Assembly (NCBI GenBank): GCA_030066685.1 | Contig: JASJBF010000001.1 | Coordinates: forward strand, 124,001 to 188,000 | Direction: 5' to 3' | Source: Kiloniellales bacterium | GTDB lineage: Bacteria; Pseudomonadota; Alphaproteobacteria; Kiloniellales; JAKSBE01 | Length of the DNA: 64,000 nucleotides | Part shown: positions 16,946 to 39,196 of the stretch, piece after piece | Position numbering within the stretch: the stretch's first letter is position 1 | Layout: the number at the start of each line of letters is the position of its first letter | The notes under the pieces: generated by a model | What the model saw: only the letters and a program-made list of their open reading frames with translations | Databases searched by the model: none | Told to the model about the DNA's origin: nothing | Position numbers and translations under genes: made by a program

Positions 16946-17356
16946 GATCTCTCCCGATGTCGGCCGATTGCGTCCGCCGTCCGGCAGTACCCTAACCCTC
17001 AAGACAGGCCGACACCAACACATCCAATGAGACCGGCGCAGACCTCTGTCACGCCCCGGCGCCGGCGGGCTTTGCGAGAGCCCCCCTGCGGCCGAACTTT
17101 CTGGCAATGCCCGCATCATATGCGCGAAGTGGATAGTCCGGTTCTGCCAATTGCGACTAAATTGAGGGTCTTCTACCGCGACACGGCAGCTCAGGCCTTG
17201 TGTCCCCGCTACGTCGCCAGCGCGCGGGTGCGGTTGTTGGCCGAAGGGCCGGATAGAGAGGGTTCCGAATCTGCGCCTTGGAATGTCGGACCTGTGACAG
17301 CCCGGGATATCGGCTACGATGGATCGTACCAGTCAGCTGCGAAGTGGAGGATCAGG
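16946..17356. other. Divergent intergenic region between the RND operon and small exported proteins
   Basis: 411 nt that must hold the minus-strand RND promoter and the plus-strand promoter of the small exported proteins. The plus-strand site at 17121-17163 is described separately. I see no clear minus-strand sigma-70 promoter, and reading frames here are not convincing. Confidence 0.5.
17121..17163 (+). promoter_or_regulatory. Pm-like promoter, copy E (22-nt spacing)
   Basis: TGCG-CGAAGT-GGATA at 17121-17135 matches TGCN-N6-GGATA. A TAAATT -10 hexamer lies at 17158-17163, 22 nt after GGATA (21 in the other four copies). It is the most divergent copy (AAGT in place of AATC before GGATA). It lies about 195 nt upstream of the glycine-zipper gene at 17357. 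Confidence 0.45.
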
Positions 17357-17824
17357 ATGATGCGTGGATTGGCTCTGGCTGTCGGGGCGTCAGCGGCGCT
17401 CGCGGTCGCGCGGCCGGCGGCGGCCCAGGAGCTCTATTTCTATCCCAGTCAGGGACAAAGCCAGCAGCAGCAGAACCAGGACTTCGGGGAATGCCATGCC
17501 TGGGCGGTCCAGCAATCCGGCTTCAATCCCATGGCGCAGCCGGCGCCGCCGCCGCAGGAAGCCACGCAGGGCGGTCTGCTCCGCGGCGGTGCCCGCGGCG
17601 CAGCGGCCGGCGCGGTGGTCGGTGCCATCACGGGCAATGCCGGCCGGGGCGCCGCGGCCGGGGCCGCAGGCGGCGCCCTGATCGGCGGATTTCGCAGGCA
17701 GGATCAGCGCAGGCAGCAGGAGCAGGCGCAGCGGCAGTACAACCAGCAGCAGGCCGCCGGCCGCTCCTCCTACAACCGGGCCGTCAGCGCTTGCATGCAG
17801 GGCCGCGGCTACGGCGTGAGCTAG
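17357..17824 (+). CDS. Exported glycine-zipper protein
   Basis: 155 residues; GTGGAGG lies 6 nt before the ATG at 17357. The signal peptide is MMRGLALAVGASAALAVARPAAAQ. A Gln-rich stretch (QGQSQQQQNQ) precedes ECHAWAVQQSGFNP, then a glycine-zipper membrane-type segment GAAAGAVVGAITGNAGRGAAAGAAGGALIGGF (residues about 80-110) and a Gln/Arg-rich tail ending SACMQGRGYGVS. Glycine-zipper domains insert or oligomerise in membranes; the family resembles YMGG/OmpA-associated glycine zipper proteins. It is the first of four small exported-protein genes. Function unknown. Confidence 0.7.
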   Translation: MMRGLALAVGASAALAVARPAAAQELYFYPSQGQSQQQQNQDFGECHAWAVQQSGFNPMAQPAPPPQEATQGGLLRGGARGAAAGAVVGAITGNAGRGAAAGAAGGALIGGFRRQDQRRQQEQAQRQYNQQQAAGRSSYNRAVSACMQGRGYGVS

Positions 17825-17838
17825 GAAAGGATCCGCAT

Positions 17839-18246
17839 ATGCGACTCTTCGGTACGCTTGTCCTGGCCGCGCTCCTGCTGGCTTCACACGCTGCTCGGTC
17901 GGAGGGCTTCGACAGGTCGAATCCCGTGATCTGCGCCTCCGTCGACAGTCTTTCCTGCGCACCGGGCGAGGCCTGTCAGGCCGCGACCACGGAGGCACTC
18001 AACATTCCTCAGTTCTTCCGCATCCACTTTGCCGAGAAGGTGGTGAAGGCGGAGCGACCCGATGGCGAGGAGCGCACGTCGGAAATCAGGAGCATCGACG
18101 AGCTCGAGAACGAGCTGATCCTGCAGGGGACGCAGGGCGGCCTCGGATGGAGCCTCACGATTGCGCGCGCGACCGGCAAGATGTCCTTATCCGCCGTCGG
18201 GGATGAGGTCGCCTTCGTTGTCTTCGGCGCCTGCACCCGCCTGTGA
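17839..18246 (+). CDS. Small exported protein of unknown function
   Basis: 135 residues from the ATG at 17839 (GGAAAGG 8 nt upstream), 14 nt after the glycine-zipper gene. Signal peptide MRLFGTLVLAALLLASHAARS. The mature protein has four Cys: CASVDSLSCAPGEACQAA near the N-terminus and ACTRL at the end, suggesting disulfides in the periplasm. The rest is beta-prone (FFRIHFAEKVVKAERPDGEERTSEIRSI; GWSLTIARATGKMSLSAVGDEVAFVVFGAC). No family recognised. Probably in the same transcript as its neighbours. Confidence 0.65.
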   Translation: MRLFGTLVLAALLLASHAARSEGFDRSNPVICASVDSLSCAPGEACQAATTEALNIPQFFRIHFAEKVVKAERPDGEERTSEIRSIDELENELILQGTQGGLGWSLTIARATGKMSLSAVGDEVAFVVFGACTRL

Positions 18247-18348
18247 TGGAGGTGAAGGCCGGGCTCGGTCGGTGATGGAAGACCTGCAGTGTTTCAGGAG
18301 CAGCGATGCTCCGAGCAAGTCCAGGGAGACGAAAAGGAGGCTAGAAGC

Positions 18349-18747
18349 ATGAGAAAGACGGCATTGGCTCTCGCCACGGCCTTGGCCCTTGCTGCGACCG
18401 GCGCTCTGGCGCAGGGCAGCAATAAGATCAAGACCCTTTCGGTCGATGATTTCCAGCTCGACACCGCCAAGGAGCTGGTGGAGATCTGCACGCTCGAATC
18501 CGCCCATCCCGATTTCCAGACGGCCATAGGGTTCTGCTACGGCTATATCTCGGGCGGCGGCCATTTCCATAGGGCGCTGGCCAATGGACCGGAATTCGAT
18601 CCCATGGTGTGCCCACCGACGGAAGTCACTCACGACCAGGTGGTGAAGATCTTCACGGCCTACACCCAAGCCAATCCGCAGTTTCTCGAGGAGCCGGCGA
18701 TGGATGTCCTGTTCCGTGCCGCGGTTGCCAAGTGGCCCTGCGGGTAG
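18349..18747 (+). CDS. Exported Rap1a/Tai-like protein
   Basis: 132 residues from the ATG at 18349 (AAAAGGAGG about 9 nt upstream). Signal peptide MRKTALALATALALAATGALAQ. The mature part has the Rap1a-type pattern: an early Cys (EICTLES), FCYGYISGGG, a proline-rich VCPP, then DQVVKIFTAYTQANPQFLEEPAMDVLFRAAVAKWPCG with a terminal Cys. In the Rap1a/Tai4 family such proteins are periplasmic immunity proteins for type VI effectors, but many members are unlinked to T6SS, and no effector gene is next to this one. The immunity role is therefore only a family-level possibility. Confidence 0.7.
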   Translation: MRKTALALATALALAATGALAQGSNKIKTLSVDDFQLDTAKELVEICTLESAHPDFQTAIGFCYGYISGGGHFHRALANGPEFDPMVCPPTEVTHDQVVKIFTAYTQANPQFLEEPAMDVLFRAAVAKWPCG

Positions 18748-18790
18748 AGGGCTTTCGTGGATCGCCTTTGAATTTGGGAGTAAGGGAACT

Positions 18791-19174
18791 ATGACGAAGA
18801 CCATGGCAATAACCGGTACTAGCCACCCGGACGGCGGCCTGCTGCGGCGCATCGCGATTCCGTTTCTCGTGGCCTGCGCACTCATTCTCGCTGGTTGTTC
18901 CTCGGATCCCTCGAAGCGGGAGACCGAGGAGCGTACCGGCAAGGGCGTCGGCATCGGGGCGGCGGCAGGCGCGGCAGGCGGCGCCTTGTTCGGCGCAATC
19001 GCCGGCAAGCCCGGAACCGGCGCAGCGATCGGGGCGGCGGCAGGCGCGGTCCTCGGCGGTGCCGGCGGCTACATCTACGACCAGAGCCAGAAGCGCAAGG
19101 ACGCCGAGAGCGAGAACGAGCAGCTCAAGCGCGAGAATGAGGAGTTGCGCCAGCAGCAACAGCAGCAGCAGTAG
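18791..19174 (+). CDS. Glycine-zipper lipoprotein with C-terminal coiled coil
   Basis: 127 residues from the ATG at 18791 (GGGAGTAAGGGA upstream). The lipobox LAGC (ACALILAGCSSDPS) predicts a lipoprotein. A glycine-zipper segment (GVGIGAAAGAAGGALFGAIAGKPGTGAAIGAAAGAVLGG, residues about 57-96) precedes GGYIYDQSQKRKDAESENEQLKRENEELRQQQQQQQ, a short coiled coil ending in a poly-Gln run. YMGG/OmpA-like glycine zipper lipoproteins of this shape are associated with cell envelope stress and are widespread in proteobacteria. It is the last of four small exported-protein genes. Confidence 0.7.
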   Translation: MTKTMAITGTSHPDGGLLRRIAIPFLVACALILAGCSSDPSKRETEERTGKGVGIGAAAGAAGGALFGAIAGKPGTGAAIGAAAGAVLGGAGGYIYDQSQKRKDAESENEQLKRENEELRQQQQQQQ

Positions 19175-19545
19175 CTGTCCTCGGCACCGGGATTGCGGCC
19201 CCGACGAGGAAGCGAGCCGATCTCTGCACCGCCTGGGGGAGGGTGGGCATTGCCCACGCGAGGGATTCGCGGCCCAAGGCCTTCGGAAGTCGAGCCTGTG
19301 AACCTTCCGCCGGGCGCCGGCCGCGCCCCGAGCGAGAGGTTCGAGCCCCGCCGCACACCCGGGTGGCCTTCGTCGCAAGATGGCCAGGCTTGCGGGGTGA
19401 TGTATGGTAGTGACCTGAGTGTCACGGTGAAGGAGGGTATCTGAGTCAAGGGGTTGCTAGGTTCGATCGGGGCCGGGTCTGCGCCCGGCGCCGTGTGCGG
19501 GGGCGGGAGCTGTCGTAGTTCCAAGCGTCCTATGGGGGAGCGAAA
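19175..19545. other. Intergenic region before the mla operon
   Basis: 371 nt. The only structure I see is a 7-bp inverted repeat GTGGGCA / TGCCCAC (19243-19249, 19251-19257) with a 1-nt centre. A T-arm-like GGTTCGAGCCCC near 19338 has no acceptor stem or anticodon arm around it, so it is not a tRNA. The mla promoter must lie here but is not obvious. Confidence 0.4.
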
Positions 19546-20694
19546 ATGACCGCTGAGACAACAGCGACGAAAGGCGGTGAGCTTGAGCTCGAACCGACGC
19601 GGGAGGCCTTGGTCCTCAAGCTGAAGGGGCCCTGGCGGTTGGCCAGGGGAATCAGTTCGATGGAGAGCCTCTTCGCGCGGCGCGAGCTCACATCGATCCC
19701 CAAGCAGATTAGGATCGATTCCTCTGCGCTGACGGAGTGGGACAGCGCTCTGATTTGCTTCCTGGTCGAGCTGAAGAAGCGCTGCCAGACCTTGAACATC
19801 GCCTTCGATGCGAGCGATCTTCCCGAGGGCGCCAAGCGCCTCGTCGACCTCGCCCTGGCCGTTCCGGAGCGCGAGGATTCCAAGCGGGCGGAGAGCCGCA
19901 GCGACTTCCTGACCGTGATTGGTCGCGATGTCATAGACTCCCTCAAGAGCGCCGGCGAAATGCTTGATTTCTTGGGCGAGAGCTTCATCGCCTTGGGTCG
20001 CGCGATCCGTGGCCGCGCGCGCTTCCGCATGTCCGACGCGTTACATCTGGTTCAGCAGTGCGGGCCCGACGCCCTGCCGATCGTGACCCTCATTTCATTT
20101 CTCGTCGGCATGATCTTGGGCTTCGTCGGTCTGGTCCAGCTCGAGCAGTTCGGCGCCGACATCTTCGTGGCCAATCTTGTGGCCGTCGCCATGGTCCGTG
20201 AAATGGGCGGCATGATGACGGCGATCATCATGTCCGGGCGGACCGGCGCCGCCTTCGCCGCCCAGCTTGGCACCATGCAGGTCAACGACGAGATCGCCGC
20301 CTTCCGGACCATCGGCATCCCGCCGATCGAGTTCATCGTCCTGCCGCGCATGCTGGCGCTGATCTTCGCGGTTCCCCTGCTGACGATCTACGCCAACATC
20401 ATCGGTATGCTGGGCGGCTCGCTGGTCACCGTGGCCCTCACCGAGGTGTCGATGCTGCAGTACTACGTGCAAACCGTGCAGTCCGTCGGCCTGATCGATT
20501 GGGCCAGCGGCCTCGTCAAGGCCACCGTCTATGGGATCATCATCGCCATCTCGGGCTGCCTGCGCGGCATGCAGTCCAAGAAGAGCGCGGCTGCCGTGGG
20601 CGAGGCCGCCACCTCGGCCGTGGTCATGTCGATCGTCTTGATCATCATCGCCGAAGCGATCCTGACGATCATGTACCAGATCCTGGGGATCTAG
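19546..20694 (+). CDS. mlaE: MlaE-type lipid ABC transporter permease with N-terminal STAS domain
   Basis: 382 residues; GGGGGAG lies about 4 nt before the ATG. Residues about 15-110 form a STAS-like domain (IRIDSSALTEWDSALICFLVELKKRC), and from about 130 the MlaE permease domain follows (LISFLVGMILGFVGLVQLEQFGADIFVANLVAVAMVREMGGMMTAIIMSGRTGAAFAAQLGTMQVNDEIAAFRTIG). In E. coli the STAS domain (MlaB) is a separate protein; here it is fused to the permease, as in many alphaproteobacterial MlaE proteins. MlaE moves phospholipids across the inner membrane with MlaF and MlaD. The mlaF gene starts 2 nt after the stop. Confidence 0.9.
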   Translation: MTAETTATKGGELELEPTREALVLKLKGPWRLARGISSMESLFARRELTSIPKQIRIDSSALTEWDSALICFLVELKKRCQTLNIAFDASDLPEGAKRLVDLALAVPEREDSKRAESRSDFLTVIGRDVIDSLKSAGEMLDFLGESFIALGRAIRGRARFRMSDALHLVQQCGPDALPIVTLISFLVGMILGFVGLVQLEQFGADIFVANLVAVAMVREMGGMMTAIIMSGRTGAAFAAQLGTMQVNDEIAAFRTIGIPPIEFIVLPRMLALIFAVPLLTIYANIIGMLGGSLVTVALTEVSMLQYYVQTVQSVGLIDWASGLVKATVYGIIIAISGCLRGMQSKKSAAAVGEAATSAVVMSIVLIIIAEAILTIMYQILGI

Positions 20695-20696
20695 CG

Positions 20697-21512
20697 ATGG
20701 CCGAACAGCAGGTCCCCGAGCCAAGCAGGGTCAGCCCACCGGCCGTCGGGCCGCAGGCCGGTGCGGATGCGCCCATCGTGATCGAGGACGTGACCATGGC
20801 CTACGGCACCTTCGTGGTGCAGAAGGACCTCAACTTCACGGTCAAACGCGGCGACATCTTCATCATCATGGGTGGCAGCGGCTGCGGCAAGAGCACGGTG
20901 ATGCGCGCCCTCATCGCGATGCAGCCGCCGGCCAAGGGTCGCGTCTGGTTCGAAGGCGAGAGCCTGTGGGAGATAGAGGAACAGGCGCGCCAGACCCTGA
21001 TGCAGGAGACCGGAGTCGTCTTTCAGAGCGGCGGCCTGTGGAGCTCCATGACCCTGGCCGAGAACATCTGCCTGCCCCTGGGCGAGTACACCGACCTCTC
21101 GGAGAAAGACTCCTTCGAGGTCGCCAAGCTCAAGCTCGCCCTGGTCGGCCTGGCGGGTTTCGAGGATTTCTATCCCTCCGAGATCTCCGGCGGGATGCAG
21201 CGCCGCGCTGGTGTGGCTCGCGCTTTGGCGCTTGATCCGCAGATCCTGTTCTTCGACGAGCCTTCGGCCGGGCTCGATCCGATCAGCTCCCGGCGCCTCG
21301 ACGACCTGATTCTCGAACTCCGGGACAGTCTCGGCACGACGATCATCGTCGTCACCCACGAGCTCGCCAGCATCTTCACCATCGGCAACAACTCGGTGGT
21401 TCTCGACCCGGACAGCAAGACCCAGATCGCGACTGGGGATCCGAAGTGGCTGCGCGACCATAGCGAAGATCCGCGTGTGCGTGCGTTCCTGAACCGCGGA
21501 GAGGAAGAATGA
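20697..21512 (+). CDS. mlaF: MlaF-type lipid ABC transporter ATPase
   Basis: 271 residues. The ABC ATPase motifs are Walker A GGSGCGKST, Q-loop VVFQSGGLWSSM, signature SGGMQRR and Walker B ILFFDEPSAGLD, followed by the switch H in VVTHELAS. An N-terminal extension of about 25 residues (EQQVPEPSRVSPPAVGPQAG) precedes IVIEDVTMAYGTFVVQKDL. It should energise phospholipid transport by the MlaE permease encoded just upstream (2-nt gap) with MlaD encoded 41 nt downstream. Confidence 0.9.
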   Translation: MAEQQVPEPSRVSPPAVGPQAGADAPIVIEDVTMAYGTFVVQKDLNFTVKRGDIFIIMGGSGCGKSTVMRALIAMQPPAKGRVWFEGESLWEIEEQARQTLMQETGVVFQSGGLWSSMTLAENICLPLGEYTDLSEKDSFEVAKLKLALVGLAGFEDFYPSEISGGMQRRAGVARALALDPQILFFDEPSAGLDPISSRRLDDLILELRDSLGTTIIVVTHELASIFTIGNNSVVLDPDSKTQIATGDPKWLRDHSEDPRVRAFLNRGEEE

Positions 21513-21553
21513 CGTTCACGGACCGCGCAACGGAGGGGGAGGACTGAGACGCC

Positions 21554-22498
21554 ATGGCCAAGGCCAATCCTAGAACCGTTGGGGGGTTCGTGCTCGGCGC
21601 CGTCGCTCTTGCCGTCGCCGCTGTTGCCGTCTTCGGCACCGGAAGGTTCTTCGAGACACGGGACACGGTGGTCTCTTTCTTTTCTGGCTCGCTCATGGGC
21701 CTTCGCGTTGGCGCCCCGGTGGAGATGCGTGGGGTCCTGATCGGCACGGTCACGGACCTATGGGTCGAAGTCGATCCGGAAACTCTAGAGTTTACCTTCC
21801 CGGTCCTGATGGAAATCCAGCAATCGAGAATCCGCGGCATTGCCGAAGTCGAAGAGGATCGTCTCGACGAACTCATCGACGACGGGCTTCGCGCGCAGCT
21901 CGCCACACAGAGCCTGGTGACGGGCCAGCAGTCGATCCAGATGCAGTTTCTGCCGGAAACGGAGGTCGAGTTCGTAGAGACGACTCTTCCCTATGACCAG
22001 ATTCCCACCGTGCCATCGGTGTTCGAGCAGATCGAGAGCGATGTCAGCGAGGTGATGAGGCGGGCGAACATACTGCTGGACCGTGTGAATGACATACTCT
22101 CCGATGACAACCGGTCGAGGGTCGGAACCATTCTGGACAACCTGACCAAGACGACGACCGAACTTGAGCAGGGCATAGACTCCCTGAACCGGCTGGTGGA
22201 GGATGCGCAGGAGGTGGTGCTGAACGTCAAGAACACCGATCCGAAGATACAGAGACTTCTCGATACCGCGAACGGGACTCTGGAGCGCTATGGTGCCCTA
22301 GCCGAGCGCAGCACGGCGCTGGTCGAGGAAAATCGCAAGGGCATGAAGGACTTCACCACGACCGGGCTCTACGAGCTGACCAACCTGGCGGTCGACGCCC
22401 AGGGTGCGATCGAGCAGTTTCGACGGGTAATGGAAGAGATGGAGCGCGACCCCGCGCGCTTCTTCCTGGGCAGGCCCGCAGAGGTGGAGGTGCAATGA
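21554..22498 (+). CDS. mlaD: MlaD-type MCE-domain lipid-binding protein
   Basis: 314 residues with an N-terminal transmembrane anchor (VGGFVLGAVALAVAAVAVFG) followed by the MCE domain (VSFFSGSLMGLRVGAPVEMRGVLIGTVTDLWVEVDPETLEFTFPVLMEIQ), then a region of helical heptads (DRVNDILSDDNRSRVGTILDNLTKTTTELEQGIDSLNRLVEDAQEVV). MlaD hexamers receive phospholipid from the permease in the periplasm. The long C-terminal helical part is typical of larger MCE proteins. The last codon overlaps the next gene by 4 nt (ATGA), so translational coupling is likely. Confidence 0.9.
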   Translation: MAKANPRTVGGFVLGAVALAVAAVAVFGTGRFFETRDTVVSFFSGSLMGLRVGAPVEMRGVLIGTVTDLWVEVDPETLEFTFPVLMEIQQSRIRGIAEVEEDRLDELIDDGLRAQLATQSLVTGQQSIQMQFLPETEVEFVETTLPYDQIPTVPSVFEQIESDVSEVMRRANILLDRVNDILSDDNRSRVGTILDNLTKTTTELEQGIDSLNRLVEDAQEVVLNVKNTDPKIQRLLDTANGTLERYGALAERSTALVEENRKGMKDFTTTGLYELTNLAVDAQGAIEQFRRVMEEMERDPARFFLGRPAEVEVQ

Positions 22499-23142
22499 TG
22501 GACTGGCGCAAGCAAGGTCAGACTCCGATTACAAGGCGCTTTTTTGGCGGTCTCTTGCTCTCGGTTCCGGCGCTGGCGCTGGTTGCTTGCAGCCTTCCGG
22601 GCGGGCGCAAGGCGCCCCGCCGCGTGAGGCTGACGGCGGCCGAGGACTTCCCGCCGAACATGCCTTCGGTGGCCTGGACCTTGCTGGTCAACGAACCGCA
22701 GGCGACGCTCTCGCTCAACTCCGCGAAGGTCGCCTACATCGGCGAGAAGAAACAGATCGCATATCTCGCGACCGCTGAGTGGGCGAGCCGGGCGCCGGAG
22801 ATGGTCATGGAACTGCTGGTCGAGTCCTTTCAGAACTCGAACAAGATCCTGACGGTCGGCGACCGTCGGGCGCGGATCCGGCCGGACTTCGAGCTCGAAA
22901 CCAGACTCGTCGAGTTCTTCTTCGAGCAGACCGACAAGAACGCCGGCGAGGTGCGGGTCCAGCTTGAGACGACCCTCATCAAGCGCCCGCAGCGCTCGCC
23001 CCTGGCCACCTTTTCCTTCGAGTCCACCTCCACAGTCTCGCCGCGCTCTCTCGACAACATTATCGCGGCCTTCGACGAGAGCCTGAGGGACGTGATGGAG
23101 CAGACGGTGGAGTGGACGCTCCAAACCGGCGCGCGCGCCTAG
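22495..23142 (+). CDS. ABC-type transport auxiliary lipoprotein (PqiC/YmbA-like)
   Basis: 215 residues, beginning inside the mlaD stop (ATGA overlap). The N-terminus has TRRFFGGLLLSVPALALVACS: a twin-arginine motif, a hydrophobic stretch and the lipobox LVAC, so it may be a Tat-exported lipoprotein. The mature domain has LSLNSAKVAYIGEKKQIAYLATAEWASRAPEMVMELLVESFQNSNKILTV, matching the PqiC/ABC_trans_aux family (beta sheet with YLATAEWA where members usually have Y...W). It likely bridges the MCE protein to the outer membrane. The operon ends here, with hairpins at 23192-23294. Confidence 0.8.
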   Translation: MMDWRKQGQTPITRRFFGGLLLSVPALALVACSLPGGRKAPRRVRLTAAEDFPPNMPSVAWTLLVNEPQATLSLNSAKVAYIGEKKQIAYLATAEWASRAPEMVMELLVESFQNSNKILTVGDRRARIRPDFELETRLVEFFFEQTDKNAGEVRVQLETTLIKRPQRSPLATFSFESTSTVSPRSLDNIIAAFDESLRDVMEQTVEWTLQTGARA

Positions 23143-23191
23143 CGCGGGCCGGGAACGCCAGCCTGTCCGCGCTCGGCCGAAAGTTCGATCT

Positions 23192-23241: not shown

Positions 23242-23267
23242 CCCTTAACGATTGAGAGTACGGCTCA

Positions 23268-23294: not shown

Positions 23295-23302
23295 ATCGTG
23301 CT

Positions 23303-24397: not shown

Positions 24398-24453
24398 GCG
24401 AAGCCCCCCTAGATCATCGATAGCCTCAATCAGAACACATACATATCACTGCG

Positions 24454-26370: not shown

Positions 26371-26735
26371 ACTCAACCTCAGGCCCTGGAGACGGTCACC
26401 TAGCAGCTGCGCCCGGTCTTGTGCCGCGCGTGCGTCCGCTTTGATCCGGCGGATTGCGCTAGGGATGGTAGGGCGCGGAAGGCGGATCGAGAGGAGTCTC
26501 GAATGCGGAGGTGGAGCGCCGCTGCCTGGCGAGACGGCGTTTTTGCGCGAATCGGATAGCCCCGGTTCGAGGCGCGCGCTAAATTTTCGACCGTTGCGAG
26601 ACAGCTGGCTTGGCGAGAAGGCCGAATGACGGCGTGAACCTTTTGGGGGGTATCGCGAGAATCGGTCCACGCGAGTTTCGGGGGAGGATCTCAGATTCGA
26701 GGCACCCCTGGACGGACAGAAGGGGGAGTAGTCCG
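26371..26735. other. Intergenic region with Pm-like promoter
   Basis: 365 nt. It holds the Pm-like promoter at 26544-26585 and a 5' leader of about 145 nt before the efflux gene. No other structure is apparent; reading frames here are Arg-rich and not convincing. Confidence 0.5.
26544..26585 (+). promoter_or_regulatory. Pm-like promoter, copy A
   Basis: TGCG-CGAATC-GGATA (26544-26558), then G-C, and TAAATT (26580-26585) 21 nt after GGATA. A second TGC lies exactly 21 bp upstream (26523), where a distal XylS half-site would sit, but its GGATA counterpart is degenerate (GACGG). It serves the NodT-type efflux protein gene, about 145 nt downstream. Confidence 0.6.
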
Positions 26736-28772: not shown

Positions 28773-31349
28773 ATGAATCAAAGACGTAAAGGAACTTCGC
28801 GAAGCTTTGCGGGCGCACTCCTGGTGGCTGTCTTCACCGTGTCTTTCGCCTTCACGACCGTGGCTGGTTCAAAGCATGACCCTTACGCGGGCCTATCCGG
28901 AGAAGACCTGGCAGCCGTCTTGTCGAGCTTTCATACGCGCGTGATCGGAGATGAAAAGCGGGTCAAGGGAACCTCGAAGGAAAGACGAACGGCGAAGTAC
29001 ATCGCGTTTCAGTTGCGCCTAGCCGGCTATAACCCACGGCTGCAGCGGTTTGACGCGGCGACGGGCGAGCTGATCGGTCCCGAGAAGAAACGATACGGGC
29101 CCAGACGGGACCAAGTGATTTCCTACAATGTCATCGCTGAGAAGAAAGGCAGCGTCGACCCCGAACGTGTTCTCGTTTTGGGCGCTCATTTGGACTCGGT
29201 GCCGCAGAACGATGGCACCGGCTACTCGGACAACGGCGCCGGTGCGGGCGTCGGGCTCGGTGTCGCGCAGGTACTGGCCAAGCAAGATCTGCCGTTCACC
29301 ACCGTCTTCGTCTTCTTTGGTGCCGAGGAAAGCTGTCCGAGCTACATCGACTACTGCGTCGACAGCGGCCTGGCCGGCACCGGCGGCAAGAAGGGCTCAA
29401 CGGCCTACACATCGACGTTCACCCCTCAGCAGGTGAACGATACCGTTGCGATGCTGAACCTCGATACCGTCGTCGGCGGCGACTTCCTCTATGCCCATGG
29501 CGCGTCAGAGGGTTCGGACGGCTGGGTCAGGGAGCGCCTGCTGGAAATCGCGGCGGAGGCGAGGATCGACCTTCGCATCAATCCGGGCTATCCGATCGAC
29601 TATGCCGACGGCAAGGTGCTGTATCCCCGGGGTACGACCGGTGACTGGGGGGATCATTTCCCCTTCGAGGAAAAGGGCGTCGAGATCGGCTTTATCGAGG
29701 CGACCAACTGGGACATCGGCGATCTGGACGGCTACGAGCAGTCGGAGAAGCTGCTGAACGAAACCGGCGACGGCGCGATCTGGCATACCGACCGGGACAT
29801 CTTCAAGTTCCTGAAGAAGACCTTTCCCGGTCGGGTCCAGCGCCAGAACCGGGAAGCTGTTGCGCTGGTCTACCGCTTCCTGCGCGATCCCCAGCCGCCC
29901 GCCGAGCTTTCGCCCGGCGCCCTGGCCCGGCGTGAGGCCTCGATCTGCGCCGAGGTCATCGGCAAGAAGGTCGCCGGCACCTCCGGCGAGCTGGCGATGC
30001 GGGACTACATCCTCGAGCGGTTGCTGGAGATGGGCTACGACGCCGACATCCAGCCCTTCGAGATCCCCGAGGACGCCGACTACAGCGGCGGCGAGACCTC
30101 GTTCAACGTCTTCGCGGTCAAGCCGGGACAGAGCCCCACGGAAAGCGGCAAGGAATTCGTGATCGGATCGCACTACGACTCGGTGCCTCAGAACGACGGC
30201 AACGGCTACACCGACAACTGCGCCGGCACCGGCACCAACCTGGCCCTGGCCGATGTCCTGCAGGACGAAGCCGTGCCGGTCACCGTCCGGTTCATCTTCT
30301 TCGGCGCCGAGGAGCTCGGCAAGATCGGCTCGGAGGCTTATGTCGACGCCATGGATGGCGCGAGCACGGGAGTTGCAGGCGAGCCGCTCGGCGATATCGA
30401 CGATGTCGAGGGAATGCTGAACCTCGACACGCCCTGGGGCGGCGATTTCAACTATGTCCACGGCGCGTCGGAGGGCAACGAGGGCTGGATCCGGGAAGCC
30501 CTTCTGAGCATTGCCGAGGCGAAGCGCTACCAATGGCAAGAGAACCCGGGCAACTTCATCTCCGTGGCCTATTGGTACGGCGGCAACGGGACCGTCCCGC
30601 AGGACACGGCTTGCGTGACCGGCGAGACCTACGATACGAAGGCCGCAGAAGAGGGCGAGCCCCTGACAGTCGACGACTTCGACAGCGACGAGCTGATCGA
30701 CACCTCCGACGAGGAGGGCACCGACGTCAGCGCGGCCGACTACTGCGTCTTCCTGCCCGAAGGCACGACCGGTGACTGGTCCGATCACTTCCCATTCCAG
30801 GCCCAGGGCAAGGAGATCGGCTACATCGAAGCCACCAACTGGGATATCGGCGACTTCGACGGCTACCAGCAGTCGGCGGAGCTCTTGGAGGAGTTCGAAA
30901 ACTGCATCGCGAGCGGGGGCGATACCGACGATTGCGGCGACGCCGCCGGGGCCATCTGGCATACCGACCGGGACGAGTACGGTTTCCTGAACGAGACCTT
31001 CCCAAGCCGGATCCAGCGACAATCGACCGAGATCATGGAGGTGTTGCTCGCGTTCCTGCGCGCGCCGGAACTGCCTCTTGTCGCCAGCGTGCCGCCGAGC
31101 GCCGAGGTGGTGTCTGCCCGCAGCAGCGATGTGCGGGAGCGCATCTTGCGGCGGGGCCTGCGCGTTCGGCTCAAGGCCTTGGTTGAAGACCTGGGCAACA
31201 ACAACGAGAGCATCGATCTCCTGATCGAGGCGCTGAAACGGCGCGACGTCAACGACTCGGTGCTGATCAAGCGGATCCCGCCCGAGGCGGTCGCGCGCCT
31301 TGAAGAGCTGCGGGAGGAATTCGGAGACTTGCTGCGCGAAACACCGTAG
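28773..31349 (+). CDS. Exported double-domain M28-family metallopeptidase
   Basis: 858 residues from the ATG at 28773 (GGAG about 9 nt upstream); the open frame continues upstream but is leader. A signal peptide (SFAGALLVAVFTVSFAFTTVAGS) starts it. Two M28-type catalytic domains follow, each with dizinc ligands: domain 1 GAHLDSVPQNDGTGYSDNGAG (H139, D141, D153) and GAEES (E185-E186); domain 2 GSHYDSVPQNDGNGYTDNCAG (near 467-485) and GAEEL (near 513). Both seem catalytically intact. Each domain also has HGASEG and a GTTGDW.DHFPF segment. The C-terminal part is helical. It likely releases amino acids from peptides in the periplasm or outside; most M28 enzymes have one such domain. Confidence 0.88.
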   Translation: MNQRRKGTSRSFAGALLVAVFTVSFAFTTVAGSKHDPYAGLSGEDLAAVLSSFHTRVIGDEKRVKGTSKERRTAKYIAFQLRLAGYNPRLQRFDAATGELIGPEKKRYGPRRDQVISYNVIAEKKGSVDPERVLVLGAHLDSVPQNDGTGYSDNGAGAGVGLGVAQVLAKQDLPFTTVFVFFGAEESCPSYIDYCVDSGLAGTGGKKGSTAYTSTFTPQQVNDTVAMLNLDTVVGGDFLYAHGASEGSDGWVRERLLEIAAEARIDLRINPGYPIDYADGKVLYPRGTTGDWGDHFPFEEKGVEIGFIEATNWDIGDLDGYEQSEKLLNETGDGAIWHTDRDIFKFLKKTFPGRVQRQNREAVALVYRFLRDPQPPAELSPGALARREASICAEVIGKKVAGTSGELAMRDYILERLLEMGYDADIQPFEIPEDADYSGGETSFNVFAVKPGQSPTESGKEFVIGSHYDSVPQNDGNGYTDNCAGTGTNLALADVLQDEAVPVTVRFIFFGAEELGKIGSEAYVDAMDGASTGVAGEPLGDIDDVEGMLNLDTPWGGDFNYVHGASEGNEGWIREALLSIAEAKRYQWQENPGNFISVAYWYGGNGTVPQDTACVTGETYDTKAAEEGEPLTVDDFDSDELIDTSDEEGTDVSAADYCVFLPEGTTGDWSDHFPFQAQGKEIGYIEATNWDIGDFDGYQQSAELLEEFENCIASGGDTDDCGDAAGAIWHTDRDEYGFLNETFPSRIQRQSTEIMEVLLAFLRAPELPLVASVPPSAEVVSARSSDVRERILRRGLRVRLKALVEDLGNNNESIDLLIEALKRRDVNDSVLIKRIPPEAVARLEELREEFGDLLRETP

Positions 31350-32156
31350 CTTCACGGGCCGTCGTGGTGCGGGCGGCCCGCGCATCTCCGGGCTCCGGTC
31401 GGCCTCGAGGTTTCGGAGCGATCGCGGGTCGGAGGGCTGCATTGCCGCGGCGTCAACTGGCAAGGCGCGGCGACGAGGCGGTGAGCGACAGCGGCTCGGT
31501 CTGTGCCCGCCGGCTCGCGATCCGCCGTCGCGTGCCGAAGAGACCAAGACGCTTTCGTAACCAAAGTATAACACTTGCGTCCGGTCCCAACTCCTCGCGG
31601 TGGTGAGACTTCGATCCGCTCCGTCGGGTTTCTGTCGAACCCTCTCGAACCCGGCAAGACGCCGCTTGTGTGCGCAAAAGTCAATTGAGTTCAAAGCATT
31701 GGTTCAAGGCTCGCCCGCAAGGATCCTAGCGTGCTCGCGGCCTGCCGATGCGACTTGACGCTCGGACGATGTCGTCCTTTCACGGAGACAGCAGCCGTCT
31801 GTGTTCAATTGTTGCGTGAATCGGATAGCGCGGTATCGACGGCGGGCCTAGGGTCGTGATGACAGCCACAATCCGCGAGTGAACCAGCGGGGTGAATGTT
31901 GAAGGGGAGGGCCGTCGGCAGGGCTGGCGCGCAATGGCAGGTTTCCGATGCCTCTGTTTCCTACTGTTGCGCCGGGGCTATTCGCTGACCGCAGGGCGCC
32001 GACGGTCATGTTTGGCGGCGCATTGAGCGCAAGGTAACGGAAACGCGGCAAGGATGGCATCAATCGACGACGACGGAAGTGGGTCTCAAGAAACGGGTCC
32101 CGGGCGCTAGATGCCAGTCATTCCGCTGATCCGAGGGATCAGGGTGGGAGCGGAAG
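31350..32156. other. 807-nt intergenic region with Pm-like promoter and long leader
   Basis: The Pm-like promoter is at 31814-31855, leaving about 295 nt before the porin ATG. The rest (31350-31813) shows short overlapping frames in several phases, none with a signal peptide or ribosome site. A TATAAC hexamer near 31571 could be a -10 of a small RNA, with little support. No terminator with a U-tract is apparent after the peptidase gene. Confidence 0.45.
31814..31855 (+). promoter_or_regulatory. Pm-like promoter, copy C
   Basis: TGCG-TGAATC-GGATA (31814-31828), then TAGGGT (31850-31855) exactly 21 nt after GGATA. It is about 300 nt upstream of the porin gene and could drive the porin-to-arcA run (32157-38970). 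Confidence 0.6.
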
Positions 32157-33572
32157 ATGCTGATCAGAACGTGGTCAATCGCATTTGTTATCGCGATCTC
32201 CGTACAGGCTTTCCTCTCGGTACCGGTTGGGGCTCAGACGGTAGCCGTAGATGCGGAGCTGCTCAGGCAACTGCAGGAGCTCGTCAAGGAGCAATCCGAC
32301 CAGCTCAAGCAGCAGTCTCAGCAGCTCGGTTCGCAGGCGCAGACCATTGAGACGCTCAAGTCTCGGGTCGATCAGTTGGAGCGGGCCTCGACGGAAACAC
32401 AGAACATCGCGACCCAGGCGCAATCCACCGCGGCCGAGGCCCAGACAACCGCGACCGAGGCCCAAACGGTCGCCGCTAAGGCCATAGACACGGCGGAGCA
32501 GACGAGCGCTGGCCAGCTGCCAAGCAACGTCGTCACATCGGGCGACGACAAGATCAAGGTGACGGTTTCGGGCCAGATCAACCGGGCCGTCAACTTCACC
32601 GACGATGGCGAGGAAACCAGAGCGTACTTCGTCGACAACGACGTCTCGAATTCGCGCGTCCGCTGGGTCGGTGAGGGAACGACGATCGACGGCACCAATC
32701 TGGGCTCGAGGATCGAATTCGGCATCAGTCCCAACAACTCCGGCGACGTCAGCCAGCAAAACGAGACCTCCGACGACTTCCTCGACGTGCGGAAAGCAGA
32801 AGGCTGGGTCCGCAATGACACCTACGGCATGCTGCAATTCGGCAAAGGCCAGGCGGCGGCCGACGACACGGCGGAGTACGACCTCTCGCTGGTCGGTGCG
32901 GTGAATACCTACTCGGGTGTTGCCGATCTCTTCGGTGCCATTGAGTTCACCGAAAGCAACGAACTGACCGGTATCCGGGTCGACGACGTCTTCTTCAACT
33001 TCGACGGCGACCGGCAGAACCGCGTCGGAATCGATTCACCGGTCATCGGGCCGGGCCTTCAGATCGCGGCCTCGGCCGGCGACGACCAGCGCTACGACAT
33101 CGCGCTCAAGTGGGGCTACGACTACGGCGACTGGAGCGGTGTGCAAATCGGCGACTTCCTGACCCTGGGCGCCATTTCGATCCGGGATCCGAGCATAAAC
33201 AAGACGGACTGGCGCCTGGCGGGTTCCTTCTCGGCGATCCACGAGCCGACCGGTCTCGGCCTCACCGTTTCCGGGGGCATGGATGAGAGGGACCAGCGGG
33301 ACAATCCGCACAACATCTATGCAAAGCTGAGTTGGGACACCAGCTTCTTCGATTTCGGCGACACCGGGTTCGGAATCGACTACACCTACGGCAAGAATAG
33401 ACAGGCCGACTCTGACGAGAATCAGTCCTACGGCATCGGCGTCGTTCAGCTCATCGACGCCTGGGCGACGGAACTCTACGCCCAGTATCGCATCTTCAAC
33501 TACGAACGCGAAGACGAGCAAAACCCCGACAACATCATCGCCGGCACGATCGGTGGGCGGGTCAAGTTCTGA
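32157..33572 (+). CDS. Porin with N-terminal coiled coil
   Basis: 471 residues; GGGAGCGG lies near the ATG. Signal peptide FVIAISVQAFLSVPVGAQ. Residues about 28-120 form a periplasmic coiled coil (LLRQLQELVKEQSDQLKQQSQQLGSQAQTIETLKSRVDQLER, then repeated AQTTATEAQT). The beta-barrel part begins KVTVSGQINRAVNF and shows alternating strands with aromatic girdle residues (NRVRWVG..., LGSRIEFGIS, KAEGWVRNDTYGMLQFGKG) ending in ...GGRVKF with a terminal Phe, the usual outer-membrane protein signature. The barrel resembles general porins of alphaproteobacteria. Its stop overlaps the next lipoprotein gene (TGATG). Confidence 0.85.
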   Translation: MLIRTWSIAFVIAISVQAFLSVPVGAQTVAVDAELLRQLQELVKEQSDQLKQQSQQLGSQAQTIETLKSRVDQLERASTETQNIATQAQSTAAEAQTTATEAQTVAAKAIDTAEQTSAGQLPSNVVTSGDDKIKVTVSGQINRAVNFTDDGEETRAYFVDNDVSNSRVRWVGEGTTIDGTNLGSRIEFGISPNNSGDVSQQNETSDDFLDVRKAEGWVRNDTYGMLQFGKGQAAADDTAEYDLSLVGAVNTYSGVADLFGAIEFTESNELTGIRVDDVFFNFDGDRQNRVGIDSPVIGPGLQIAASAGDDQRYDIALKWGYDYGDWSGVQIGDFLTLGAISIRDPSINKTDWRLAGSFSAIHEPTGLGLTVSGGMDERDQRDNPHNIYAKLSWDTSFFDFGDTGFGIDYTYGKNRQADSDENQSYGIGVVQLIDAWATELYAQYRIFNYEREDEQNPDNIIAGTIGGRVKF

Positions 33573-33808
33573 TGCGCGCCGCAATTATCCTTGTGTGCCT
33601 TCTGGCGACCGCCTGCGGCGTGACGATGAAGCCCGGCTCGGAACCGCGCAACCGCCGGGAGATTCCTCCGGGCCCGGGGATCATGAGCGGCGAGGAGGGC
33701 GAGTTCGTGATCTATCGGCTTAATCGGACGCCCCCCGCAACGAGAGCCTCCGACGAAGCAGCGGAGGCGCCTGAAGAGGATGCCTCCGACGCGGAGTCAG
33801 GCCAATAG
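33572..33808 (+). CDS. Small lipoprotein
   Basis: 78 residues; its ATG overlaps the porin stop (TGATG), so it is translationally coupled. Lipobox LATAC (ILVCLLATACGVTMKPG). The mature part is acidic and disordered (TRASDEAAEAPEEDASDAESGQ). No family recognised; the tight coupling suggests a porin-related accessory or an outer-membrane lipoprotein. The next gene starts 69 nt later. Confidence 0.65.
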   Translation: MRAAIILVCLLATACGVTMKPGSEPRNRREIPPGPGIMSGEEGEFVIYRLNRTPPATRASDEAAEAPEEDASDAESGQ

Positions 33809-33877
33809 GGCCAGCGAAGACCTTACTGGAAGCCGAGGTCAGCCTGGCCGACGCAAGCGCAACAGGGACAGAGAGCA

Positions 33878-34795
33878 ATGGCGCATTCACATGGACGACC
33901 CTGGGGTCTTCGTGCGCTGGTCGCCATCGCGGCGATTCTGATATCGGCGGCCTCGCCGGCCTCCGCGCAGACCTTGGAACGGATCGCTGAAACCGGCGTG
34001 CTCAAGGTCGGCTACCGCGAGGACGCACGGCCTTTCTCTTTCAAGGGTGAGACGGGCGAGCCGAGCGGCTACGCGATCGAGCTCTGCCGGGAAGTCGCGG
34101 CCGACGTGGCGATCAAGCTCAAGCTGCCCGAGCTCTCGATCGACTATCGGCCGGTCTCGACGGAAGAGCGCTTTCGGGCCGTCGCGGAGGGACGGATCGA
34201 CATCCTCTGCGGTGCCAGCACGGTCACCCTGGCGCGGCGGGAGATCGTCTCCTTCTCGATCCCGACCTTTCAGACCGGGATCAGCCCGCTGCTGCGCGCC
34301 GATGCACCGGCCTTCCTGCGCGAAAGCCTGGCGCAGCGCAGACCGGCGCTGCCGCCGCGCGTCGTCCTGATGCAGGCCTTCGAAGACCGGAAGTTCGGCG
34401 TGCGCGCCGACACCACGGCCGAAGCGTGGCTGCGCAAGAGCATCAAGACGCTCGCCTCCAACGCGGAGATCGCAACCGTCGACAGCCACGACGAAGGCCT
34501 TCGCCAAGTCCTCGACGGCGAGCTCGACGCCTACTTCGCCGATCGGGCGATCCTTCTGGGCATGGCCTTGGCCAGCGACCGAATGAGCGAGCTCGTGGTC
34601 GGCGAGCGGCTCTACAGCCACGAGCCCTACGGTCTGGCCCTGGCGAAGGGGGACGAGGACTTCCGCCTGCTGGTCGACCGCAGCCTCAGCCGGCTTTACC
34701 GGACGCTCGCGATCACGCCGATTTACGCCCGATACTTCGGATCTCCGGGGCGGCTGGTCCTGGCCCTCTATCAGATGAATGCCCTTCCGGAGTGA
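33878..34795 (+). CDS. Amino-acid-type ABC transporter substrate-binding protein (SBP_bac_3)
   Basis: 305 residues. Signal peptide ALVAIAAILISAASPASAQ. The SBP_bac_3 plan is clear: TGVLKVGYREDARPFSF, GYAIELCREVA, FRAVAEGRIDILCGASTVTLARREIVSFSIPTF, FADRAILLGM and LALAKGDEDFRLLVDRSLSRLY. The family binds polar amino acids; ligand identity is not decidable. No permease or ATPase gene is adjacent, so it is either an orphan binding protein or serves transporter genes elsewhere. It lies between the porin pair and the arginine-type carriers, suggesting arginine-related ligand (inference). Confidence 0.82.
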   Translation: MAHSHGRPWGLRALVAIAAILISAASPASAQTLERIAETGVLKVGYREDARPFSFKGETGEPSGYAIELCREVAADVAIKLKLPELSIDYRPVSTEERFRAVAEGRIDILCGASTVTLARREIVSFSIPTFQTGISPLLRADAPAFLRESLAQRRPALPPRVVLMQAFEDRKFGVRADTTAEAWLRKSIKTLASNAEIATVDSHDEGLRQVLDGELDAYFADRAILLGMALASDRMSELVVGERLYSHEPYGLALAKGDEDFRLLVDRSLSRLYRTLAITPIYARYFGSPGRLVLALYQMNALPE

Positions 34796-34932
34796 CCCCA
34801 GGTGCCGATCTGTCCCACCACGAAGGGCCGGCGCCCGGACCCGGAGGCAAGCTCTGCGGCGGTGGCGCTCGAACTCCGTGACGGCGCGTTGGAAAAGGCT
34901 AAGGCGAGAAAACGCAGGGGAAGCGTGACACC

Positions 34933-36333
34933 ATGAAGTTTCCGAGCGCATACACCATTCTCTTCGGTCTCATCATCGCGGTCGCCATCGCGACCTGGTT
35001 CGTCCCGGCCGGAGAGTACGACCGCGAGATGAACGAGGCCCTCGGCAAGGAGGTGCCGGTGCCCGGCACCTACAAGGAGGTCGAGCCGAACCCGCAGGGC
35101 TTCGTCGACGTGGTGCTGGCGCCCATCGCCGGCTTCTACGATCCCGGCAGCTACGAGGCGGCGGCGATCGATGTCGCGCTCTTCGTGCTGGTCATCGGCG
35201 GTTTCCTGGGCATCGTGACCAAGACCGGCGCGATCGATGCCGGGATCGGCGGCGCTATGCGCAGCCTCGCGGGCCGGGAAAAGTGGATGATCCCGATCCT
35301 CATGGCGCTCTTCGCGGCCGGTGGCACGATCTACGGCATGGCCGAGGAATCGCTGGCCTTCTACACCCTGATCATTCCGGTCATGATTGCCGCGCGCTAC
35401 GACGCCGTGACCGGTGTCGCGATCATCATGCTGGGCGCCGGCGTCGGGACCCTGGGATCGACCATCAATCCCTTCGCCACGGTCATCGCGGCCAATGCCG
35501 CGGGCGTGCCCTTCACCGACGGGATCGTCCTGCGCTTCGTCGTTTTGATCCTCTGCTGGCTCGCCTGCGTGATTTACGTGATGCGCTACGCGGAGCGAGT
35601 CCGCAAGGATCCCGAGGTCTCCATCGTCGCCGACCGGCGCGCCGACAACGAGGCCCATTTCCTCAAGGGGCGCGATGAGGCGGATAACATGGAGCTGACC
35701 TTCACGCGCAAGATCATCCTCGTGATCTTCGCCGGCAGCTTCGGTGTGATGATCTGGGGCGTTTCCGCCGGCGGCTGGTGGATGGCCGAGATGTCCGGCC
35801 TCTTCATCGTCGCGTCGATCCTGGTCGGGATCATCGCGCGCATGAGCGAGGAGGACTTCACCAACACTTTCGTCGACGGCGCCCGCGATCTTCTGGGCGT
35901 GGCTCTGGTCATCGGCATCGCGCGCGGCATCGTGGTCGTGATGGATGCCGGCAAGATGACCGACACCATCCTGTTCTGGGCCGAGAGCGCGGTCTCCGGG
36001 CTGCCGGAGATCGCCTTCATCAATGCGATGTTCGGGCTCCAGGCGCTGCTGTCCTTCTTCGTGCCTTCGTCCTCGGGCCTCGCCGTGCTCACCATGCCGA
36101 TCATGGCGCCCTTGTCCGATTTTGCCGGGGTCCAGCGCGATCTCGTGGTGACCGCCTATCAGTCGGCAAGCGGCCTGGTCAACCTGATCAATCCGACCTT
36201 TGCCGTGGTGATGGGCGGTCTTGCCCTCGGTCGGGTGCCCTACGAGCGCTGGCTACGCTTCATGTTCCCGCTGCTCGTGGCCCTCACCGTCATCATCATG
36301 GCTGCGATCAGCGTGGGGACGATCCTGAACTAG
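34933..36333 (+). CDS. YfcC/DcuC-family membrane carrier, probably basic amino acid
   Basis: 466 residues with about 11-12 hydrophobic segments, beginning FPSAYTILFGLIIAVAIATWFVPAGEYDRE, the YfcC-family start. Later features include GGTIYGMAEESLAFYTLIIPVMIAARYDAVTG, LGAGVGTLGSTINPFATVIAANAAG and FFVPSSSGLAVLTMPIMAPLSDF, all matching the C4-dicarboxylate/YfcC group. Some YfcC-family carriers sit in arginine deiminase clusters and act as arginine/ornithine antiporters; the neighbour arcA and the APC antiporter support that reading here, but the substrate is inferred. Confidence 0.8.
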   Translation: MKFPSAYTILFGLIIAVAIATWFVPAGEYDREMNEALGKEVPVPGTYKEVEPNPQGFVDVVLAPIAGFYDPGSYEAAAIDVALFVLVIGGFLGIVTKTGAIDAGIGGAMRSLAGREKWMIPILMALFAAGGTIYGMAEESLAFYTLIIPVMIAARYDAVTGVAIIMLGAGVGTLGSTINPFATVIAANAAGVPFTDGIVLRFVVLILCWLACVIYVMRYAERVRKDPEVSIVADRRADNEAHFLKGRDEADNMELTFTRKIILVIFAGSFGVMIWGVSAGGWWMAEMSGLFIVASILVGIIARMSEEDFTNTFVDGARDLLGVALVIGIARGIVVVMDAGKMTDTILFWAESAVSGLPEIAFINAMFGLQALLSFFVPSSSGLAVLTMPIMAPLSDFAGVQRDLVVTAYQSASGLVNLINPTFAVVMGGLALGRVPYERWLRFMFPLLVALTVIIMAAISVGTILN

Positions 36334-36343
36334 GTGCGCGGGA

Positions 36344-37741
36344 ATGCTGCGGGAGGATGCCCAGATCGGCACGGCGCTGAACGGCGGTCACAGCGAAAGC
36401 CTGCCGGTCAGAAAACTGGGGCTTTGGATGTGCACGGCCCTCGTGGTCGGCAACATGATCGGCTCGGGCATCTTCCTGCTGCCGGCCGCCCTGGCGGCCT
36501 ATGGTCCGATCTCCATCGCCGGCTGGCTGGCGACCTCGACCGGGGCCATCGTGCTGGCCCTGATCTTCGGGCGCCTTGCTCGCCTGGTGCCCAAGACCGG
36601 CGGCCCCTACGCCTATTCGCGGGAGGGTTTCGGCGATTTCGCAGGCTTTATCATCGCCTGGGGTTACTGGATCGCGCTCTGGGCCGGCAACGCGGCGGTG
36701 GCCGTGGCCTTCTCGGGCTACCTGGGATTCCTGGTCCCGGCGATCGGCGACAATCCGTTGGCCGGCCTGGCCTCGGCCCTCGCAGCGATCTGGCTGCTCA
36801 CCTGGGTGAATGCGCGCGGCATCAGCGAAGCGGGCTTGGTGCAGCTCATCACCACGGTCTTGAAGCTGCTGCCCTTGTTGCTGGTCGCGCTGATCGGCCT
36901 GGTGTTCATCGACCCCGGCCTCTTCACCCCGATCAACGTCAGCGAAGAGAGCAACGCGGCCGCCGTGGCCGCCTGCGCGGCTTTGACCCTTTGGGCCTTC
37001 CTGGGCTTGGAGTCCGCGACCGTGCCGGCTGGGGACGTCGTGGAACCGGAGCGCACCATCCCGCGGGCGACCATCATCGGCACCGGCCTGGCAGCGGTCG
37101 TCTATATCGCCGTCACCGTGGTCGCCTTCGGGCTCGTGCCGGGTGCCGAGCTGAAGAGCTCGACCGCCCCCCTGGCCGACGTGGCCACGGCGATGTGGGG
37201 CGCGCTGGGCGGCACCTTCATCGCGGTCGCGGCCTGCATCTCGACCTTCGGGACCCTCAACGGCTTTACCCTGCTCACCGGCCAGGTGCCGCTCGGTGCC
37301 GCCCGCGACAGGCTCTTCCCGCCGCGCTTCGCCCGTCTGTCGAAGGCCGGGACGCCGGTCTTCGCGCTGGTCGTCTCGAACACCCTGGCGAGCATCCTGA
37401 TCGCGATGAACTTCACCAAGGGGCTGGTCGACCAGTTCGTCTTCATCATCCTCTTGGCGACCTTGACGACCCTGGTGCCCTACCTCTTCTGCGCCCTGGC
37501 CGAGCTGATGATCTACATCACGACGGGACGGACGATCGTGCGCAAGGGCCTGGCACCCGTTGTCGGCCTGGCGGTCGCCGGGTTCCTCTACTCCGCCTGG
37601 GCGATCTACGGGGCCGGCCAGGAGGTCGTCTTCTACGGGTTCCTGCTGATCACGGCAGGTGTCCCGGTCTACGTCTGGTTGAAGTGGCGCCTGCGCGCCG
37701 GGAACACGAGCACAGAGGTCATTCAAGGAGAAGCGACATGA
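36344..37741 (+). CDS. AdiC-type APC amino acid antiporter
   Basis: 465 residues with 12 hydrophobic segments. It starts with a [21 protein letters not shown]1 motif and has [29 protein letters not shown] in TM6-7, close to AdiC (arginine/agmatine antiporter: WSFIGVESAS recalled from memory). The gene starts 10 nt after the YfcC-type gene and its stop overlaps the arcA start (ATGA). Arginine/ornithine or arginine/agmatine exchange is the likely role, given arcA downstream. Two different carriers for the same pathway are thus encoded in tandem. Confidence 0.82.
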
Positions 37742-38970
37742 CGACGTTGGGAGTCCATTCGGAAGTCGGAAAGCTGAGGAAGGTGATCGTCCATCGCCCA
37801 GGCCTGGCGATCGCGCGCCTCACGCCGAGCAACTGCCACGACTTGCTCTTCGACGACGTGCTCTGGGTCAAGCAGGCGCGCCAGGAGCACCTGGCCTTCT
37901 GCGACGAGATGCGGCACCGGGGCATCGAGGTCTATCTCTTCCGCGAGTTGCTCGAGGAAACGATGAAGGATCCGGCAGCGCGCGAATGGCTGCTGAACCT
38001 CAGGATGCCGGAGAATACGGTCGGAGTCGGCATGGCGCGGGAGCTCTACGCCCACGCGATGGAGGTGGACGCCTACGATCTTTCGGTCCACCTGATCGGC
38101 GGTATCAACCGGGCGGAGCTGCCTTTCGAGCCCAAAGGTATGCTCGCCGCCATGCTCGATCCCCAGGATTTCGTCCTGGCGCCCTTGCCGAACCAGCTCT
38201 TCACCCGCGATCCCTCGGCCTGGATCTACGGCGGCGTGACGCTTCACCCGATGTTCTGGCCGGCGCGTCGCGCGGAGACACTTAACACAGCGGCGATCTA
38301 CAAGTTCCATCCGATGTTCAAGGACGCGGATTTCCAGTTCTGGTGGGGCGACGACGTCGAGAACGACCACGGCATGGCCCGCGTCGAGGGCGGCGACGTC
38401 ATGCCGATCGGCAAAGGTATCGTGCTGATCGGCATGGGCGAACGCACGACCCCGCAGGCGGTCGGCCAGGTCGCGCGCAGCCTCTTCGCCAAGGGCGGGG
38501 CCGAGCTGGTCATCGCCGCCGGAATGCCCAAGGAAAGGGCCGCGATGCACCTGGACACCGTCTTCACCTTCTGCAGCGAAGAGGTCGTCAACATGTTCCC
38601 GGATGTCGTGAACACGATCCGGCCCTTCTCCATCCGGCCGGGCGACAAGGAGGGAGAGATCTCGGTCGTCGAGGAGAAGAAGCCCTTCCCGACAGTGGTC
38701 GCCGAGGCGTTGGGGGTCAAGAAGCTCCATGCCGTCCACACCGGCGGCGACCCCTATGAGGCCGAGCGCGAGCAGTGGGACGACGGCAACAACGTGGTCG
38801 CCCTGGAGCCGGGCGTGGTGGTGGCCTACGAGCGCAACACCTACACCAACACCCTGCTGCGCAAGGCGGGGATCGAGGTCGTCACCATCGCCGGCAACGA
38901 GCTCGGGCGGGGTCGCGGCGGCGGTCACTGCATGACCTGTCCGATCGAGCGCGATCCGGTCGACTATTAG
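37738..38970 (+). CDS. arcA: Arginine deiminase
   Basis: 410 residues. It hydrolyses arginine to citrulline and ammonia. Guanidino-group motifs are complete: [29 protein letters not shown] and the catalytic Cys in [14 protein letters not shown] at the C-terminus. ATGA overlap with the antiporter shows coupling. It is the last gene before a 269-nt space and the arcBC operon, so the ADI pathway is split over two transcription units. Length and order of motifs match canonical ArcA. Confidence 0.95.
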
Positions 38971-39154
38971 GACCGGCCTGACCAGCGGGGGAAGTGACGG
39001 AGTGAATCCGATGTGCCATGACCCGCTTGAGGGCAGCCCCTGGCAGGCCAGGGCGTTGGATGCAAAGCCGGGCGACCGGCCCGGACTTCGCAGAGGATCG
39101 CGCGTCCGGGTCGGGCAGGGCAGTCGGGATCAGTTGTCTGTAGTCGAGCCGAAT

Positions 39155-39196
39155 TGCCTAAATCGGATAGCGGCGGCTCGAAGCAAGTCGTAGCGT
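39155..39196 (+). promoter_or_regulatory. Pm-like promoter, copy D
   Basis: TGCC-TAAATC-GGATA (39155-39169), then TAGCGT (39191-39196) exactly 21 nt after GGATA. Its transcript start would be about 35-40 nt before the arcB ATG at 39240, the shortest leader of the five copies, so it is the best placed promoter for arcB-arcC-V-ATPase. Confidence 0.65.

Follow-up and report, generated by a model that had tools for sequence, protein, structure and literature searches.

Single Pm-like operators mark a predicted AraC/XylS-family regulon in Kiloniellales

Introduction

Five promoter-like sites of one geometry, all on the same strand of a Kiloniellales contig, raise the question of which protein reads them and what it would control by doing so. 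They lie in the window, the whole 64,000-nt stretch of DNA analysed here, which belongs to a source genome (G000) of 5.96 Mb in 73 contigs. The sites are, with considerable probability, promoters of the class-II activator type that belong to one AraC/XylS-family regulon, whose predicted regulators are the proteins P0001 and P0002. The set looks like a new lineage-specific energy and envelope regulon under a known type of regulator, and no report of it was found in the literature on these MAGs. Sequence alone is used to define its operator, the geometry of its promoters and its most likely regulator, in Alphaproteobacteria known here from MAGs.

Operator sites in the window

The pattern TGC-N7-GGATAG occurs exactly five times in the window, always on the forward strand (Table 1), compared with a mean of 0.24 and a maximum of 2 in 100 shuffled versions of the same sequence. 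All five sites described in the first-pass annotation were recovered, the fourth of them starting at 31813 and not at 31814. The 11-mer AATCGGATAGC, singled out there as common to four sites and improbable by chance, is found four times where 0.01 occurrences are expected, and TCGGATAG followed by TANNNT is likewise found four times against an expectation of 0.02. Measured from GGATA, the TANNNT hexamer follows after 22, 21, 21, 21 and 21 nt at sites A to E, which bears out the spacings reported, 21 nt with a single exception of 22 nt; the hexamer TAAATT is used by both A and B. The 11-mer had also been described as intergenic only, and all five sites fall between called genes. Site B has the top sequence-profile score among the sites of the genome.

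Table 1. Predicted operator/promoter sites, putative target genes and candidate regulators in the window; operon extents are taken from gene order and strand
Feature	Position	Strand	Description
Operator/promoter A	17121..17163	+	TGCGCGAAGTGGATAG, TAAATT 22 nt past GGATA; upstream of the glycine-zipper/Rap1a/MlaE-ABC-MlaD operon
Operator/promoter B	26544..26585	+	TGCGCGAATCGGATAGC, TAAATT at 21 nt; upstream of the OEP (TolC-like) gene
Operator/promoter C	28516..28557	+	TGCATTAATCGGATAGC, TAGGCT at 21 nt; upstream of the M28/M20-type peptidase gene
Operator/promoter D	31813..31854	+	TGCGTGAATCGGATAGC, TAGGGT at 21 nt; upstream of alanine-zipper protein, SBP, DcuC-type carrier, amino acid permease and arginine deiminase genes
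Operator/promoter E	39155..39196	+	TGCCTAAATCGGATAGC, TAGCGT at 21 nt; upstream of OTC, carbamate kinase, V-ATPase, DUF3141, Pta, AckA and FabI genes
Target operon A	17357..23142	+	Glycine-zipper proteins, Rap1a-like, MlaE permease, ABC ATPase, MlaD, ABC_trans_aux lipoprotein
Target B	26736..28373	+	Outer membrane efflux protein (OEP)
Target C	28824..31349	+	Peptidase_M28 / M20 protein
Target D	32157..38970	+	Alanine-zipper protein, SBP_bac_3, DcuC, AA_permease_2, arginine deiminase
Target E	39240..54832	+	OTC, carbamate kinase, V-ATPase subunits, DUF3141, Pta, AckA, FabI-like
P0001	23303..24397	-	AraC-family candidate regulator, diverged copy; Pfam HTH_18 4e-20 (4.4e-20); XylS-like HTH2
P0002	24610..25686	-	AraC-family candidate regulator; Pfam HTH_18 2e-18 (2.2e-18)

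Genome-wide occurrence and conservation

The genome-wide scan that had been proposed as a check on the window sites was run with a pattern of operator plus -10 at three or fewer mismatches, and returned 12 matches in the source genome against 0 for the same pattern reversed. The 15 sites of this genome combine to TGCRCGAATCGGATAG(C)-N19-TANNNT, with strong conservation confined to the operator and the enriched T/A/T of the -10 hexamer. According to the gene models all 15 are intergenic and each faces a gene, intergenic DNA making up about 14% of the sequence. A sequence profile gave 17 matches at E <= 1 in G000 and 3 and 6 in two congeneric Kiloniellales MAGs, G026 and G027, the weakest of these being doubtful; lower-scoring profile matches on C28, C44 and G027:C341, which have no TGC box, were excluded, as were looser pattern matches in G026 on C134, C416, C469 and C475, which have no TANNNT at the right distance.

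In both congeners the same sites stand upstream of orthologous operons, and alignments of the orthologous promoters show that operator and -10 are kept while the flanks have diverged. Site A has its orthologue at L079:1552 in G027, where the odd 22-nt spacing is retained; those of site D are at L079:9556 and L081:10912, and those of site E at L079:14380 and L081:5679. The genes at congener sites are those for PPK2, a CHAD-CYTH protein and MipA, together with the same arginine deiminase (ADI) and V-ATPase operons. What the sites have in common, genome-wide and in the congeners, is one 16-bp operator with a -10 element at a fixed distance. Chance repetition or a mobile repeat element, which the 11-mer common to sites B to E might call to mind, is refuted by the scan (0 reversed matches against 12) and by the conservation at orthologous promoters, and sharing is limited to operator and -10 without the flanks; this explanation retains practically no probability.

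Offsets and bases were counted over a pooled set of 23 sites. TGC and GGATA are invariant in all of them, and TGC is followed by G at 16 sites, by A at 4 and by C at 3. Four of the 23 have no complete TANNNT at 21-22 nt, namely the C34 site (TAGCGC), both CHAD-CYTH sites (TAATAGAAA) and the C6 site (none); at two further sites, C13:33820 and the one on C16, it is off position or missing. Many ECF -35 elements begin with GG, as GGATAG does, and with spacing and orientation both fixed box and TANNNT could in principle be the -35 and -10 elements recognised by an alternative sigma factor of the ECF type. This is very improbable, however, given that the 26 bp from the start of GGATAG to the start of TANNNT exceed the usual -35 to -10 distance of 22-24 bp, that the TGC box 10 bp farther upstream is fully conserved, that the -10 resembles the housekeeping TANNNT, and that an AraC-type promoter has equal boxes and spacing.

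Across about 85,000 species genomes, a motif search returned 10 stretches, of which 3 are in Kiloniellales MAGs; the others are scattered and by estimate about equal in number what chance would produce. One near-perfect TGCGCGAAGCGGATAG lies on chromosome 2 of P. xenovorans LB400 (L061:5781-5822), with TATAGT at 21 nt and upstream of a porin gene, and may be either a chance match or a site of a local XylS-like protein.

Comparison with XylS/Pm and other systems

The AraC-type promoter that the sites most resemble is Pm of the XylS system, together with BenR/Pben, in the two-box TGC(A)-N6-GGNTA arrangement, the -10 at 21 nt (TAGGCT) and the position of the site over the -35. On the TOL plasmid pWW0, the boxes of Pm read TGCA-N6-GGCTA and are followed by TAGGCT at exactly 21 nt from GGCTA, the spacing seen at four of the five window sites, one having 22; the Pm-like architecture proposed in the first-pass annotation is thereby supported, and the HTH2 of the window's AraC proteins closely resembles that of XylS. 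The A of TGCA is usually absent from the present sites. Whereas Pm consists of two tandem direct repeats, a second upstream repeat sought at all offsets in the 23 pooled sites was conserved at none, and while the cores score 22.7 to 29.6, the mean at offset -21, that of Pm, was about -31, so that the doubt already voiced about the distal half-sites was justified. Because no upstream repeat is conserved, the predicted promoters are a single-operator version of Pm and not a copy of it.

Within the family, HTH1 reads box A and HTH2 reads box B. XylS is reported to contact box A (TGCA) and box B with two recognition helices (PMC5481539). The HTH2 of XylS, GFLHLGRF...FGELPSDTL, corresponds in P0001 and P0002 to GFFHLGRF...FGE(V/L)PS(K/R)TL, the common form being GF-x-HLGRF...FGE-x-PS-x-TL. 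BLASTP similarity of the two proteins to XylS is confined to the last ~100 residues, at 35-38% identity, with no detectable match to the N-terminal effector domain of XylS. They were accordingly rejected as XylS orthologues, full-length similarity being absent, and aromatic effectors are not implied for them. XylS regulates aromatic catabolism, while the targets here are unrelated to aromatics and amount to about 15 promoters in one genome. The XylS-type helix appears to have retained GGATA as its DNA word despite a different sensor, other targets and another number of sites.

Other relatives differ in further respects. AndR and EutR are the best NCBIfam matches of P0001 and P0002 (2e-28 and 1e-18, respectively), but identity with either was rejected at 99.7 and 85.9 bits against an equivalog cut-off of 350 for AndR, and at 67.3 and 61.3 bits against 319 for EutR; nor were the sites seen to be accompanied by anthranilate or ethanolamine genes. 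MarA/SoxS/Rob act at many promoters through a single asymmetric site of ~15 bp (GCAC-N7-...) (PMC4514859), a likeness to the present sites, although box sequence and protein architecture are different, P0001 and P0002 having an N-terminal domain. A precedent for the ADI pathway under an AraC/XylS-family regulator is provided by Pseudomonas ArgR, which raises expression of this pathway (PMC10963909). The ArgR box, TGTCGC-N6-GNAA with a second repeat that is generally less conserved, differs from the present sites, and V-ATPase, Mla and polyphosphate genes are not among the ArgR targets named in the text consulted.

Candidate regulators

P0001 and P0002 both possess the C-terminal domain of the AraC/XylS family with its two HTH motifs (HTH_18/HTH_AraC), and are 43% identical to each other. 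Their genes lie inside the site cluster, as does that of the relative in G027, and neither window gene has a site at its own promoter. Each congener encodes one full-length relative, with 50-56% identity to P0002 and 45-47% to P0001. Of the 63 genomes examined in the order, the same three have both full-length relatives and the motif set, and the other 60 have neither; these three are one genus and not independent, so that a Fisher value for 3 versus 60 overstates the association, and the co-occurrence counts as one evolutionary event. The regulon is most likely switched on by the AraC pair of the window, as its predicted binders. An unrelated regulator such as a response regulator that reads the site and resembles XylS by accident is slightly less probable still than the sigma factor discussed above, in view of the asymmetric two-box site with its boxes one helical turn apart, the HTH match to XylS and the co-occurrence with this AraC family.

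Further AraC genes adjoin sites on C11, C34 and C6 of G000 and could encode partners or be targets themselves. It is also conceivable, if unlikely, that one of their products reads the motif (the C11 or C6 protein, or an Arabinose_bd-type protein on C34 or C11) and that P0001 and P0002 lie in the cluster by coincidence. Besides the adjacency itself, the XylS-type HTH2 of the C11 and C6 proteins speaks for this, as do three tandem CGGATA repeats of 22-bp period on C11 (L044:4100-4170), between an Arabinose_bd-type and an XylS-HTH-type AraC gene. Searches of the motif-bearing G026 and G027 with P0001 as query, however, gave no match as strong as the C11 and C6 proteins, the Arabinose_bd-type proteins are without the HLGRF helix, and the P0001/P0002 family alone was seen to track the motif.

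With P0001 and P0002 as the regulators, the operator would be bound by P0002, by the diverged P0001 and, in each congener, by the one relative, with HTH1 on the TGC box and HTH2, a helical turn further on, contacting GGATAG. Positioned over the -35, the bound regulator would recruit RNA polymerase to TANNNT promoters devoid of a good -35 element. The N-terminal domain might sense the signal that triggers the regulon; in the structure model of P0001 this half has a mean pLDDT of 54, which is below usable confidence. The source species has two regulator copies to the one of each congener, and the diverged P0001 goes with an enlarged set of sites. These two features of the source species suggest that duplication of the regulator was accompanied by growth of the regulon.

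Target genes and predicted function

Outside the window, the targets in the source genome comprise PhoU-Pit-PPK2, RND efflux sets, a CHAD-CYTH protein, an outer membrane protein, a 2OG oxygenase and AraC genes. Once triggered, the regulon might turn on a respiration-independent supply of ATP through the arginine deiminase pathway and acetate kinase, and along with it the ion-pumping V-ATPase, phosphate and polyphosphate genes and envelope transport. Arginine-based ATP production, V-ATPase and polyphosphate genes would in this way be linked under one predicted switch. CHAD domains bind polyphosphate (PMC6537752); as PPK2 is multi-copy in the congeners, the polyphosphate link is merely suggestive. 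The common physiological theme is a putative one, pieced together from gene families, into which several targets, the peptidase, the 2OG oxygenase and the AraC genes, fit imperfectly. The most far-reaching reading, to which slightly less than an even chance is given, is that of a lineage-specific AraC/XylS global regulator that acts through a single Pm-like operator, couples ATP supply from arginine deiminase and acetate kinase, the V-type ion pump, phosphate/polyphosphate handling and envelope transport as one response, and expanded from about six to about fifteen promoters upon its duplication.

The genes from 39240 to 54832 form a single long run, with the arginine deiminase gene just upstream. 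Between the regulators and site B lies a gene for an EF-hand protein (26011-26370), the position of which is kept in G027.

Tandem sites at related AraC genes

Some other AraC genes with an XylS-type HTH also have TGC-N7-GGATA nearby. In G005, another genome of the order, tandem TGC-N7-GGAYA-like repeats of 20-bp period (L114:1930-2030 and L125:480-530) are found beside two AndR-like AraC genes. From these repeats and those on C11, the wider HTH group seems able to use tandem sites, which suggests a distinction from the present regulon with its predicted single ones. The repeat locus on C11 also adjoins an AstE/AspA-type gene.
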